Origin: an uncultured Hippea sp.
GTDB lineage: Bacteria; Campylobacterota_A; Desulfurellia; JAADFJ01
DNA: 9,395 bases
Assembly: GCA_913009315.1 (NCBI GenBank)
Contig: CAJVZA010000069.1
Span: forward strand, 1-9,395
Direction of reading: 5' to 3'
Shown: positions 2 to 8,323 of the stretch, one piece after another
Layout: every line of letters begins with the position of its first letter
How positions within the stretch are numbered: the stretch's first letter is position 1
The notes under the pieces: generated by a model
Databases searched by the model: none
The model's input: the letters and a program-made list of their open reading frames with translations, nothing else
Told to the model about the DNA's origin: nothing
Translations under genes and position numbers: made by a program

Positions 2-124
2 CTGTTGATAAATGTTATTGCTGGGAATAGAGTGACGGAACAATCTCAAAAAACGTTGATAATAAAGGGATTGCCACGCACCTTTCGGTGCTCGCAATGA
101 CAAATAGGAGTTTATCAACAGACT
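2..124. repeat. 123-bp dispersed repeat, copy 1, with terminal inverted repeats
   Basis: Bases 2-12 (CTGTTGATAAA) and 111-121 (TTTATCAACAG) are perfect 11-bp inverted repeats, giving the look of a miniature inverted-repeat element. The whole stretch aligns without gaps to 2583-2705. By hand count about 57 of 67 bases match in the left half and about 35 of 56 in the right half. It has no coding capacity. It lies just upstream of a transposase remnant, and the two copies enclose that remnant, an integrase remnant and pyk. I do not recognise a named family. The sequence shows the repeat; its mobility is inference. Confidence 0.75.
70..98. repeat. REP-like imperfect hairpin inside repeat copy 1
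   Basis: ATTGC (70-74) pairs with GCAAT (94-98) and GCACC (78-82) pairs with GGTGC (87-91). They are separated by a small internal loop (CAC/TC) and capped by the tetraloop TTTC (83-86). Imperfect palindromes of this kind, often ending in GCAATGAC, are REP-like elements that RAYT transposases are thought to mobilise. A Y1-type transposase remnant starts 46 bases downstream. The matching position in repeat copy 2 has lost the pairing. Confidence 0.6.
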
Positions 125-601: not shown

Positions 602-1015
602 GTGAGCAGATTTCTCGCTTTCTCAAATCGGAATGATGGAGTGAATGGGGATTTGCCGGTAGAAAAGTTCTTGACCCACATAAAAAAGAAAGATGACACA
701 CCTAACCGGCAAGTTCTCTATGCTCTCGGTAAACCCCCGCAGCGGAAAGATAAGACGTTATCGTATCAGTGAAAAGTTCATTCAGAATGCCGTAGGAAAG
801 GCTGTAAAGCAGGCAGGAATAGCCAAACATGCAACAGTTCGCACTCTCAGGCGCAGTTTTGCCGCATATATTCTTATGAAAAAAGTTAATATCAGGAGTA
901 TGCAGGAACTTATTGGTCATAAAAATGTTGAAATTGCAATAATATATCCACATATTTTAAGAGCATATCGAGTGCATCCAAAAGTCCACTCGACTATCTC
1001 TACGTAAAGAGTTAA
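602..1015 (+). pseudogene. Integron-type tyrosine integrase remnant (internal deletion, frameshifts)
   Basis: Bases 602 to about 719 encode VSRFLAFSNRND and VEKFLTHIKKK, which resemble the N-terminal SAM-like DNA-binding domain of long integrases; this half is the less certain. In the next frame, about 720-970, comes LSVNPRSGKIRRYRIS, then VRTLRRSFA, QELIGHK and IIYPHI. These match the IntI-like catalytic C-terminus, where the family has LSVDPRSG, HTLRHSFA, QELLGHK and MIYTHV. The His of HxxR is Arg (codon 840-842). The later His (918-920) and the nucleophile Tyr (945-947) remain. A second shift near 970 puts SKSPLDYL, the family's end motif, in a third frame ending at TAA 1013-1015. Roughly 150 central residues are missing. 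Such enzymes recombine attI and attC sites; this one is surely dead. Confidence 0.75.
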
Positions 1016-2705: not shown

Positions 2706-3129
2706 GTACTGGCGTCATTCTATTGTGTATGGCCGGTGCCGGTCGGCAAAACATTTGCCCTGACAGGCCGGGGTAATCTTATTTGGAATTAGCGCAGCTG
2801 TGCTGCCGATGGGCATGATTGAGTTTCGCACATTGCGAAGATCAATGGGACAGGATATTTCAAAACTTATAACAACGGGAATTTATAAATGGAGCAGGGA
2901 TCCGCAGTTTGTCGGCTGGTTTTTAATGCTTTTTGGAATATCGCTTGCCGGGCGGTCTGGGCTTGCATTTGCACTTACAGGAGTATTTGCCATTGCGATT
3001 TATCTGTACACTATTCTGTTGGCAGAGCCTTACCTTGAGAGTTTGCATGGAGAGGAGTATCGTTTATTCAAATTGAGGACTGCAAGGTGGATTGGAATCC
3101 AGAGGAAACAACAGTTAACTAGTAAATGA
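2706..3129 (+). pseudogene. Isoprenylcysteine carboxyl methyltransferase-like membrane protein remnant
   Basis: The C-terminal part, readable from GTG 2800 to the stop at 3129, shows the family pattern. DISKLITTGIYKWSRDPQFV resembles the usual LxTxGpYrxvRhPqY. Hydrophobic segments follow (WFLMLFGISLA; ALTGVFAIAIYLYTILL), and then the AEPYLESLHGEEYRLF signature. Upstream, another frame (2706 to about 2770) reads VLASFYCVWPVPVGKTFALTGR. It joins naturally to VILFGISAAVLPMGMIEF if one G of the GGGG run at 2770-2773 is removed. No start codon precedes it; the repeat at 2583-2705 ends exactly here. Members methylate small or lipid substrates at the membrane; the substrate here is unknown. A degenerate attC follows 17 bases after the stop, so it may once have been a cassette gene. 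A short functional form from GTG 2800 is possible but unlikely. Confidence 0.65.
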
Positions 3130-3145
3130 TTATAGTAAAATAAAA

Positions 3146-3206
3146 GCATAGCAAGGCGCATTAACTTAGACCCATCTCCGCGGCCCGGTTATGCGCAACG
3201 TTAGGC
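3146..3206 (+). other. Degenerate integron attC site, upstream of the hicBA cassette
   Basis: The site runs from GCATAGC (3146-3152, a weak R'') to GTTAGGC (3200-3206, a perfect GTTRRRY core). Between them GCGCATTAAC (3156-3165) pairs with GTTATGCGC (3188-3196), leaving one unpaired T, like the extrahelical bases that orient attC hairpins. R'' and R' are not complementary to each other. That is expected inside an array, because the last six bases of R' belong to the following cassette. The length, about 61 bp, is typical. Confidence 0.65.
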
Positions 3207-3228
3207 CATTTAAAAATAGGAGGCAAGA

Positions 3229-3447
3229 ATGAAAGCCGAGTTTACTGCCATCATTGAAAAGGCCCCGGAAGGAGGTTATTGGGCAATATGTCCAGAGATA
3301 CCAGGGGCCAATGGACAAGGTGAGACAATTGAAGAGGCGAAGAATAGCCTCAAAGAGGCGATTGAGTTGATTTTGGAAGATCGGAGAGAGGATATTCTTC
3401 GTGGTTTGCCCGAAGATGCGATTCGAGACAAGGTACAGGTTGTGTGA
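3229..3447 (+). CDS. hicB: HicB-family antitoxin
   Basis: A 72-residue protein with the HicB partial RNase H-like fold: FTAIIEKAPEGGYWAICPEI (5-24), then PGANGQGETIEEAKNSL (25-41), the usual PGxxxQGxTxEEA pattern, and an amphipathic helix to about residue 58. In the cell it would bind and neutralise the HicA mRNA interferase. It lacks the C-terminal helix-turn-helix or ribbon-helix-helix domain found in longer HicB proteins, so autorepression through this protein is doubtful. AGGAGG at 3220-3225 sits just before ATG 3229. It overlaps hicA by 4 bases (GTGA) and comes first, the reverse of the classical hicA-hicB order. Confidence 0.93.
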   Translation: MKAEFTAIIEKAPEGGYWAICPEIPGANGQGETIEEAKNSLKEAIELILEDRREDILRGLPEDAIRDKVQVV

Positions 3448-3623
3448 AACGTCGGGATCTGGAGCTAAAGCTCAGGATTGCTGAGTGCTATTTGAAGCGG
3501 GAGGGTGGATCGCACTCGCTTTGGGTAAACCCGAAGAATGGGGTTGTTGAAGCAGTTCCGCGGCATAAAGAGATAAAAGAGCCGCCGGCAAGAAAGATTC
3601 TGAAAAATCTGAATGCTGAGTAA
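3444..3623 (+). CDS. hicA: HicA-family mRNA interferase toxin
   Basis: A 59-residue protein with a double-stranded-RNA-binding-like fold: KRRDLELKL at the start, then LKREGGSHSLW with the catalytic His at position 24, and PRHKEIKEPPARKILKNL at the end, the standard HicA C-terminal pattern. It would cleave mRNA and arrest growth when HicB is lost. The GTG at 3444 overlaps the hicB stop as GTGA, so translation is probably coupled to hicB. No separate ribosome binding site is needed. The TAA at 3621-3623 is followed directly by the attC arm of the cassette. The length and conserved residues suggest an intact toxin. Confidence 0.9.
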   Translation: MKRRDLELKLRIAECYLKREGGSHSLWVNPKNGVVEAVPRHKEIKEPPARKILKNLNAE

Positions 3624-3625
3624 GT

Positions 3626-3698
3626 GGCCTAACAATGCGCCGCACCGGATTTTTATCCGCTGGCGCTCCATAGCGGCAGGTGAGCTTGGTCGTTATAT
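3626..3698 (+). other. Integron attC site of the hicBA cassette
   Basis: R'' is GGCCTAAC (3626-3633) and R' is GTTATAT (3692-3698), supplied from position 3693 on by the next cassette. The interior can fold: CACC (3643-3646) with GGTG (3679-3682), CCGCT (3657-3661) with AGCGG (3672-3676), and alternatively CGGAT (3646-3650) with ATCCG (3655-3659). Pairing is imperfect between the outer arms, as in attC sites recognised by structure. Total length is about 73 bp. Confidence 0.78.
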
Positions 3699-4124
3699 AT
3701 CAGAAAATTAAATGAGGAGGTATTAAAAATGAAAACACCGATTTGTCCTGCATGCGGTTGTTCCCTTGTAAGATTAGGTATTACTAAAGAGAGCGCAGTA
3801 ATACGGAAATACAAAGAAAAAGAATATTCATTCTGCTGCGATGAATGTGCCCTCATGTTCGAAGAAAATCCTGAAGCCCTGATAGAAGAAACTAATAGTC
3901 TCGTCGTGTGCCCAAGCTGCTTAGCAGAAAAACCAATAAGTCAAACCGTGGCAATTGACTACCAGGGTGAGAAGCTGCATTTTTGTAGGTGCCCACATTG
4001 TATGACTGTTTTTCAGGAAGATTCAGAATATTATATAAAACGTTTATCCGGCGAAATTGAATTTTCCGGCGTTTTTTCTGAGGGACGAGGGTGCTGCACA
4101 TAATGTGCAGTAAAGATGTATAAC
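3693..4124 (+). mobile_element. Probable third cassette (YHS-like gene) with truncated attC
   Basis: It starts at TTATATA after the G at 3692. Its own attC arm should read TATATAAC; TGTATAAC occurs at 4117-4124, one transition away, 14 bases after the gene stop. No GTTRRRY partner follows at a usable distance, because the minus-strand flavoprotein gene ends at 4136. The site seems cut off, making this the decayed right end of the array. Confidence 0.45.
3729..4103 (+). CDS. Cysteine-rich double YHS/TRASH-like metal-binding protein
   Basis: A 124-residue, probably cytosolic protein of two similar halves. Each has a CxxC knuckle followed about 22-27 residues later by an aromatic FC-x-C/xxC cluster. 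Half A is C6/C9 (plus C11) with FCCDEC (C36, C37, C40); half B is C61/C64 with FCRCPHC (C86, C88, C91). Both continue into an acidic helix (MFEENPEALI; VFQEDSEYYI) typical of YHS/TRASH domains, which bind metals such as Cu, Zn or Hg in metal sensing or trafficking. A GCCT tail adds two more cysteines. The exact metal and partner are unknown. GAGGAGGT at 3714-3721 is a strong ribosome binding site for ATG 3729. The gene begins 36 bases after a cassette boundary, in the cassette orientation, so it is probably a cassette gene. Confidence 0.7.
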   Translation: MKTPICPACGCSLVRLGITKESAVIRKYKEKEYSFCCDECALMFEENPEALIEETNSLVVCPSCLAEKPISQTVAIDYQGEKLHFCRCPHCMTVFQEDSEYYIKRLSGEIEFSGVFSEGRGCCT

Positions 4125-4135
4125 AAACCAAACAG

Positions 4136-5308
4136 TCAATTGTTTAATAGTTTCTTATTTAAGGAATGAGACGCGAGGTATCCGGTTGAAAATGCAGCCT
4201 GAAGGTTAAATCCTCCAATGCTTCCCTGGATATCCAACATTTCACCGGCGAAAAAGAGTCCTCCGACAAGTTTTGATTCAAGGGTTTTTGAATTGATATT
4301 TTTGAGGGACACTCCTCCTTTTGTAACAAATGCCTGTTCAACGGGACATTTTTTTATATTAATTGTGAAATGTTTCAATCCGGAGAAAAGTTTTCGCAGC
4401 GAGCTGTTTGAGATTTCTTTGCAGGATCTGTTTTCTGTAATTATAAACTGCGCTAATCTCTTTGGGATAATCGCAGAGACAGAATTTGTGAGTTTGCCGC
4501 TTTTTTCCCTGATAAAACGGATAAATTCCGCTTCATTCATTCCGATTAGTTCAATAACAAGCATCGCTCTGTCGAAATCTGCTTCAGAGAGTTTTAGTAT
4601 AGCCGGGCCGCTTATGCCGAAATGGGTAAAAATCAGATCGCCGGTTATTCGTTTCGAGGCTTTTTCCAATTTCAGCATAAGTTTGACATTTTTAAGCGAC
4701 ACTCCTTCTATGTGAGAAAAATCGCAATCGGAATAAAATGCCGATTCATAAGCTGACAGCTCGGTTATTTCATGACCAAAGCTGCGGGCGAATCTGTAGC
4801 CGTCTCCGGTTGAACCGGTTTTTGGATAACTGAGTCCGCCGCACGTCAAAAGCAGAGTCCTGCTTTGATATATAGATTTGCCGGTCTTGACCTCAAAAAA
4901 ACTGTTTTTTCTTACGTCGACTGCGGACTCAAATTGATGAAACTCAATCTGTTTTTCTCTCAGAAGTGATAAAAGCAGCTTACTGAACTGACCGGAAGTT
5001 GCATTTATAATTCTGATTCTATCATTTTCGTTTATCGTTTCGATGCCTATTGATTTTAAAAACAGAAGCAGCTGATCTCTAAAAAACAGGCGAAATGCGT
5101 CTTGCAAAAATCGTCCGTTTTTGCCGTAAGCTTCGAAAAACTCATTAAAACTTAGACTATTAGTGATGTTGCATCTTGTTCTGCCGGTGACGGCAAGTTT
5201 TTCGAGACCTCTCTGTTTATCCAAGAGTAGAATCTTATCCGATTTCAGGTTAAGTGCCGCAAAGACTCCGCTTACTCCGGCTCCAATAATTATGCAATCA
5301 TAAATCAT
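4136..5308 (-). CDS. BaiN/HI0933-family FAD-dependent oxidoreductase
   Basis: A flavoprotein of 390 residues, full length for the family (about 390-420). The N-terminal dinucleotide-binding motif GAGVSG (9-14) lies in a beta strand (MIYDCIIIGAG), and the FAD ribose acid is at LLLDKQ (28-32). The family's Gly-rich RCN motif appears as TGRTRCNITN (41-50), where SGGGRCNxTN is more usual. A C-terminal FAGEMLDIQGSIGGFNLQ (353-370) completes the FAD site. Annotated relatives are called NAD(P)/FAD-dependent oxidoreductase, aminoacetone oxidase-like or BaiN, but the physiological substrate is mostly unknown, so none is claimed. It is transcribed convergently to the cassette genes and divergently from the sugar operon. 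The ATG at 5308 lacks a clear Shine-Dalgarno sequence but has a promoter close upstream. Confidence 0.93.
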   Translation of the reverse strand: MIYDCIIIGAGVSGVFAALNLKSDKILLLDKQRGLEKLAVTGRTRCNITNSLSFNEFFEAYGKNGRFLQDAFRLFFRDQLLLFLKSIGIETINENDRIRIINATSGQFSKLLLSLLREKQIEFHQFESAVDVRKNSFFEVKTGKSIYQSRTLLLTCGGLSYPKTGSTGDGYRFARSFGHEITELSAYESAFYSDCDFSHIEGVSLKNVKLMLKLEKASKRITGDLIFTHFGISGPAILKLSEADFDRAMLVIELIGMNEAEFIRFIREKSGKLTNSVSAIIPKRLAQFIITENRSCKEISNSSLRKLFSGLKHFTINIKKCPVEQAFVTKGGVSLKNINSKTLESKLVGGLFFAGEMLDIQGSIGGFNLQAAFSTGYLASHSLNKKLLNN

Positions 5309-7222: not shown

Positions 7223-8323
7223 TTGAATATACTGCATACGGAAACATTAAAAGGCTGGGGCGGAGAACAAAATAAGGTTTTAAAAGAATTAATCGCTGCA
7301 AAAAAACTTGGCCATAAGGTATATTTTATATGTAATCCTTTTGCAGAAATTGCCAAAAGAGGCAAAAAAATGGAATTGGATGTCTTTGAATTCGAAATGA
7401 ATAAAAAAAATTTTCATAAAACAATTCCTTTTTTTCTAAAATTTATAAAAGATAAAAATATCGATATTCTTTTCTCTCACGGTTCTACCGATAGTTGGAT
7501 TGTTGCTATTGCAGGAAATCTTTCATCTAAAAAACCGTTTTTAATCAGAGAAAGGCACAATCTTTTCGTTATAAAGGGATATTTGTCAAAACTTCTGCAT
7601 AGAAAGCTTTTCGATAAAATTATAACAGTTAGTGAAAGTGTTAAAAATTATTTAAAAGATATTAAGGTGAAAGAAGAAAAAAATTTTATGCTGCCGGATG
7701 TCGTTGATACAAAACATTTTATAAATACAAAACCTACTTTAAGAAAAGAATTTGCTATTCCCGATAATGCAATAGTGGTCGGCATTTTCACATCTCTTTA
7801 TAAACAGAAGGGTGTGTATGATTTTTTTGAGGTTGCAAAGAAGATTTTAAAAAAATATGATAATGTCTATACTGTTTTTGGAGGAAACTATTCCGAAAAA
7901 GTAAAGAGGGAAATAGATGATTTTTTTGAAAAAGAAAATTATGATAAAAAAAGAGTGATATGGACAGGTTTTAAAGAAGACGCAGCATCTGTCATGAAAG
8001 ATTTTGATATATTTTTATTTCCTACGCATATTGAAGGTTTAGGGACGGTTATCATCGAGGCAATGACTTCTAAATTACCTGTTATCGTATACGATAAGGG
8101 ACCTATGAATATTTTGGTCAAAAATGGTTTAAATGGATTTACCGTGCCCTTTTTAGATACAAAAAAATTGACAGAGGCGGCAAGCCTATTGATTGAGAAC
8201 AAAGATTTGAGGAAAAAAATGGGTAAAAAATCTTTTGAAATTGCCTACGTCAATTTCGTCGAAGATGTATTAATAAATAGAATGAAAAAGCTTTTGGGAA
8301 AAATTAGTGCCGAAATTAGTTAA
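7223..8323 (+). CDS. Family 4 glycosyltransferase
   Basis: A GT-B fold transferase of 366 residues with two Rossmann-like domains. The N-terminal acceptor domain (about 1-165) begins NILHTETLKGWGGEQNKVL, and TVSESVKNYL (135-144) is the usual end-of-domain motif. The C-terminal donor domain carries VVGIFTSLYKQKG (185-197), WTGF (247-250) and the EX7E motif as E271 and E279 (EGLGTVIIEAM). Donor and acceptor sugars cannot be read from the sequence. It is preceded by a 45-base gap after the WaaE-like gene and overlaps the next gene by 17 bases. The coding sequence is markedly A-rich, with many AAA codons, unlike pyk, which may indicate recent acquisition of this part of the cluster. Confidence 0.92.
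   Translation: MNILHTETLKGWGGEQNKVLKELIAAKKLGHKVYFICNPFAEIAKRGKKMELDVFEFEMNKKNFHKTIPFFLKFIKDKNIDILFSHGSTDSWIVAIAGNLSSKKPFLIRERHNLFVIKGYLSKLLHRKLFDKIITVSESVKNYLKDIKVKEEKNFMLPDVVDTKHFINTKPTLRKEFAIPDNAIVVGIFTSLYKQKGVYDFFEVAKKILKKYDNVYTVFGGNYSEKVKREIDDFFEKENYDKKRVIWTGFKEDAASVMKDFDIFLFPTHIEGLGTVIIEAMTSKLPVIVYDKGPMNILVKNGLNGFTVPFLDTKKLTEAASLLIENKDLRKKMGKKSFEIAYVNFVEDVLINRMKKLLGKISAEIS

Follow-up and report, generated by a model that had tools for sequence, protein, structure and literature searches.

A hicBA toxin-antitoxin pair as a probable integron gene cassette in a relic array of a Desulfurellia draft genome

The 492 bp at positions 3201-3692 of the DNA analysed here raise the question of whether a hicBA gene pair was brought to this locus as a single integron gene cassette, as a preliminary description had proposed, and what has become of the array around it. 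The window, i.e., the whole stretch analysed (9395 bases), is the entire contig C69 of the draft genome G000 (1.74 Mb, 88% complete), from the class Desulfurellia of the Campylobacterota. We consider it highly probable (roughly 93%) that the segment is one integron gene cassette, composed of a 28-nt leader, overlapping hicB and hicA genes of a type II toxin-antitoxin pair and an attC site, that it was inserted by the integron integrase IntI, and that the array is now a relic.

On the forward strand, the cassette begins at the G|TT cut of its left box and ends on the G that opens the following R' box. The 8-nt box GTTAGGCC was found at 3200-3207 (+), and 3626-3633 reads GGCCTAAC, which complements it exactly. 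The 9395 bases contain no further copy on either strand, and 200 shuffles gave a mean of 0.13 copies, none of them (0/200) containing two, in keeping with the earlier remark that such a match is hard to obtain by chance.

An attC covariance model (R1), trained on nine attC sites that belong to other cassettes of the genomes G000, G021, G025 and G051, none of them a hicBA site, retrieved one strong site in the window, downstream of the two genes and with the R''/L''/L'/R' organisation, at 3627-3698 (+; R'' at 3627-3633, R' at 3692-3698), with 51 bits and an E-value of 1.6e-12 over the full model (1-72). The next-best matches did not rise above noise (10.6 bits at 7525, 9.5 bits at 4118-4148 and 9.1 bits at 3146-3206), and an Rfam search of the window matched no attC-like family, yielding chance matches only. 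Scanning of the whole draft genome with the same model returned eight attC sites, each on a different contig, with an E-value of 3e-10 for the site at 3627-3698.

Comparison with other genomes placed both ends of the cassette where the boxes predict them. In G018, from another family of the same class, the local match covers window positions 3199-3696 only (69% identity) with unrelated flanks, and the homology stops at both predicted breaks, 3200/3201 and 3692/3693. In G001, of the same genus, only 3692-4131 matches (85%) and hicBA is absent, in agreement with the second break. The cassette is thus a discrete unit, being present with other flanks in G018 and in metagenome-assembled genomes of Flavobacteriales (L089), Aquificota (L114) and Deltaproteobacteria (L136), with a box-to-box spacing of 426 nt identical in all four and in the window. 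The empty site is seen on the right side only, because the left flank has no DNA homologue in 24 relatives (its only matches are repeat-element copies within G000) and no synteny of the right flank was found in the genus. Non-cassette hicBA copies do occur in the class, as an ordinary chromosomal locus with accidental GTT/AAC boxes would have it; such a chance origin is nevertheless refuted by the E-value of the covariance model, by homology breaks exactly at both predicted ends and by the same architecture in unrelated phyla. The proposal of an integron cassette carrying hicBA was therefore borne out by the attC match, by the boundary boxes and by the breaks in relatives.

The box adjoining the R'' partner site, GTTATAT at 3692-3698, does not match the hicBA R''. 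It does nearly match, with one G.T pair, the GTATAAC at 4119-4125, which is probably the R'' of the following cassette (3693-4131, +). This cassette contains an ORF for a YHS-domain protein (3729-4103; PF04945, E = 8.8e-11), lies within the block that is 85% identical in G001 and has an attC truncated or diverged past its R'', the 9.5-bit match at 4118-4148 being the candidate start of this site. In G001 the YHS-gene cassette sits directly behind attI, upstream of which the C-terminal end of IntI survives as a relic (IYTHTLNQ..., recognised by eye in the DNA), and the match with the window starts at 3692; the GTTATAT at 3692 therefore serves the YHS cassette as R', and the R' of the hicBA cassette is the GTTAGGC at its own left end. 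The earlier view that the mismatched neighbouring R' belongs to the next cassette is accordingly supported. The attI and relic of G001 also precede a glyoxalase cassette on contig C18 of G000.

On the other side, a degenerate attC of a preceding cassette was recognised at 3146-3206 (+), its R'' decayed to GCATAGC and its R' being the GTTAGGC of hicBA. Although the site scores too low to pass the threshold (9.1 bits, E = 0.82), none of 24 other right arms pairs as well with its left arm as its own right arm does, a separate comparison with shuffled arms gives p = 0.05, and its arms resemble sites on contigs C18 and C1 of G000. Upstream of it, a fragment of a PEMT/ICMT-type methyltransferase (2800-3129, +; PF04191, E = 5.7e-10, profile positions 36-104 only), which belongs to the left flank devoid of homologues, is probably the remnant of the preceding cassette. 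An interpretation of 3146-3206 as attI was rejected, as the sequence is unlike the attI common to G001 and contig C18.

Given the weak upstream site and the dispersal of the eight attC matches over as many contigs, the cassette might instead have entered as a single insertion at a genomic attG-like site rather than into an array, the resemblance of the flanks to attC being accidental; such a route, by way of non-classical attG sites, has been published (Loot et al. 2024, as cited in PMC12690207). We regard this as quite unlikely: the sequence to the right of 3692 is itself a cassette, found behind attI in G001, the left arm of the upstream site pairs best with its own right arm, and the same contig contains a C-terminal remnant of the integron integrase IntI (693-1007, +; TIGR02249, E = 2.5e-23, profile positions 223-304 of 315). 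Moreover, several of the scattered attC matches lie near contig ends, as expected of broken arrays. Under the preferred reading of an array insertion, the cassette would once have been circular, and IntI, recombining at the GTT boxes, would have placed the circle in a cassette array.

A "perfect attC arm" had been described for the cassette. This stood for the 8-nt R box, but beyond it the arms of the attC at 3627-3698 are not complementary above chance (no better than shuffled, p = 0.65), and no canonical hairpin appeared in the fold prediction of this site. Its left arm most resembles the attC of a Bacteroidetes hicBA locus (L132) and its right arm an attC of G051; the left arm pairs better with the right arm of the upstream site (-12.8 vs -9.5 kcal/mol, p = 0.04), and an inverted repeat of 28 nt links 3185-3212 with 3621-3648. 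The arms appear mismatched, for which a chimera and mutation are both possible. The features of the arms and this inverted repeat would also suit an arrival, or a rearrangement, by homologous recombination in the attC cores, with chimeric flanking attCs, in place of IntI action at the GTT boxes. The p-values are however modest, the left arm of the upstream site shows no pairing with the right arm of the hicBA attC (p = 0.41), against what a reciprocal exchange predicts, and ordinary mutation of a non-selected attC explains the arms too, so that this alternative is judged unlikely. On the side with that p = 0.41, the pairing gave no support to a reciprocal crossover as the source of the two flanking attCs.

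Turning to the state of the array, insertion by IntI being the reading retained, the remains of intI in the draft genome consist of a pseudogene with broken frames and several stops on contig C14, the C-terminal piece at window positions 693-1007 and, on contig C18, a 3' relic. The search of this 88%-complete draft revealed neither an intact integron integrase nor a functional intI with attI beside the array, attI being identified on contig C18 and not in the window. This contig holds a single above-threshold attC, followed by a cassette with no detectable complete attC, and a clean array of at least two attCs is not demonstrated in it. With its integrase fragmented, its preceding attC decayed and the arms of the hicBA attC mismatched, the locus is the relic of an array. 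The "492-bp mobile unit" of the preliminary description hence applies to the origin of the segment, while its present mobility is doubtful, because no intact integrase was found and the attC looks defective; as predictions, the missing hairpin and arm pairing suggest a lower present activity and do not speak against a cassette origin.

Further observations were made on the same draft genome. A second cassette stretch is present on contig C1 (L173, 1894-2900), where an attC is followed by a mazEF cassette and, past an attC-like site, by an Unstab_antitox (PF09720) gene. Two direct copies of a repeat of ~125 bp lie at window positions 3-124 and 2583-2709; G000 contains about 22 matches to this repeat, 24 relatives contain none, and, given the remnant of a Y1 (IS200/REP-associated) transposase at 144-518, the repeat may be a REP/RAYT-type element. 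Illumina adapters (P5 and P7 types, by eye) are found inside contigs C23 (L022, 96-157) and C81 (L174, 2447-2515), each of which has an attC match, and these stretches are assembly artefacts.

The match between the two boxes was also followed through the gene family. A scan that used HicB relatives as queries yielded no fewer than 534 loci; the best 80 show 76-93% identity and represent many phyla. In the 75 of these best 80 that have hicA, the boxes self-match at 8/8 positions in five loci (0.8 expected from cross-pairing the flanks of different loci) and at 7/8 or more in ten (3.4 expected), numbers that are descriptive because the 75 loci are not independent; the R'/R'' logic put forward for the window thus holds in other hicBA loci. 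All 30 attC matches listed in the best 80 hicB loci share the strand of hicBA, and 13 attC matches, at 12 of the 80 loci, adjoin hicBA. A second type of terminal boxes, GTTCGGTC with GACCGAAC, surrounds the same hicBA family in L134, L141 and several other hicBA loci, which suggests a second cassette lineage. Several copies of the family also occur outside cassettes (G004, G008 and contig C168 of G015), and the linkage of hicBA to integrons is frequent, not universal.

As for the genes, hicA (3444-3623, +) begins with a GTG that overlaps the hicB stop by 4 nt and codes for a predicted HicA mRNA-interferase-type toxin of 59 aa, matching PF07927 above the Pfam cut-off (E = 1e-7) and having a conserved His24, invariant across six homologues. 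The hicB gene (3229-3447, +) codes for a putative short HicB/UPF0150-like antitoxin of 72 aa, for which PF15919 (E = 1e-5, 26.1 bits vs a curated cut-off of 27) and PF21748 (E = 1.9e-5), the matches to HicB_lk_antitox and UPF0150, fall slightly below cut-off; a profile built from its relatives matches solved HicB antitoxins (E = 3e-6), and no DNA-binding domain was recognised in it. A plasmid search with HicB gave two weak matches only (41-47% identity). From these family matches, hicBA is a putative type II toxin-antitoxin pair, in which HicA would act by cleaving mRNA and be neutralised by HicB; a cell that lost the cassette would then suffer inhibition, which would keep the array in place. 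The HicA family with its conserved His and a putative HicB N-terminal domain are shared with the HicAB type II family (solved HicB 6u0i and 6hpb, HicA 6hpb), whereas the antitoxin gene comes first in the window and the solved HicB chains, of 138-148 aa, have an extra C-terminal part that is lacking here.

The leader comprises the 28 nt before the hicB ATG, and a consensus scan of 3201-3228 gave no sigma70-like match in these 28 nt of room. Integron toxin-antitoxin cassettes are stated to carry their own promoters (PMC11023631), and in another cassette family a distance of 25-28 bp was taken as too short for one (PMC12690207). The leader of the mazEF cassette on contig C1 does contain a promoter-like TTGACA-17-TAAACT. 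Taken together, these data suggest, without proof, that the hicBA cassette is expressed by transcription from outside, upstream of it. A small inverted repeat over the ribosome-binding site is observed at 3200-3226 and in L114, L136 and G018, reading CCAATATAAATTGG-AGG in L136 and weaker in the window, and it is possibly a hairpin for translational control. In non-cassette hicBA copies, TTGACx-17-TATxxx promoter-like boxes were seen by eye just upstream (L019, 7268-7720, i.e., G004; L092, about 2440-2500).

It is conceivable, and we propose it only tentatively, that this is a widespread stripped-down toxin-antitoxin cassette devoid of self-regulation, lacking both a promoter of its own (the leader measured 28 nt in the inspected type-1 copies) and a DNA-binding domain in its antitoxin, and that it would cause addiction only where transcribed from outside, from Pc or from a neighbour. 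Such a reading, if true, would contradict the rule that integron toxin-antitoxin cassettes have their own promoters, and a promoterless cassette would offer a simple test of whether these cassettes need a promoter to stabilise arrays.

Earlier reports describe HicAB cassettes from the integron of Treponema denticola and from saliva (PMC4909258) and from metagenomes (PMC7370490), and the hicBA of the window adds a new example. With it, integron cassettes and intI relics are documented in Desulfurellia (Campylobacterota), and one hicBA cassette is seen to recur with exact architecture in at least four lineages, namely Desulfurellia, Flavobacteriales, Aquificota and Deltaproteobacteria. The T. 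denticola cassette (TDE1837/TDE1838, with saliva-metagenome copies; PMC4909258) is likewise a HicA/HicB pair, but its HicB gene of 405 bp (about 134 aa) differs from the 72-aa HicB of the window, and so does the host phylum. In the superintegron of Vibrio cholerae, with 19 toxin-antitoxin cassettes, small operons similarly lie between attC sites and are thought to stabilise the array by killing upon cassette loss (PMC11023631); own promoters are stated for them, in contrast with the 28-nt leader lacking a promoter match and the relic array lacking an intact intI described here. A comparable state is that of the CALIN (IntegronFinder 2.0, PMC9024848) and SALIN (PMC12690207) elements, likewise formed by attC sites and cassettes with no working integrase nearby: with one above-threshold attC the contig is a SALIN by count, and its degenerate neighbours suggest a former array.
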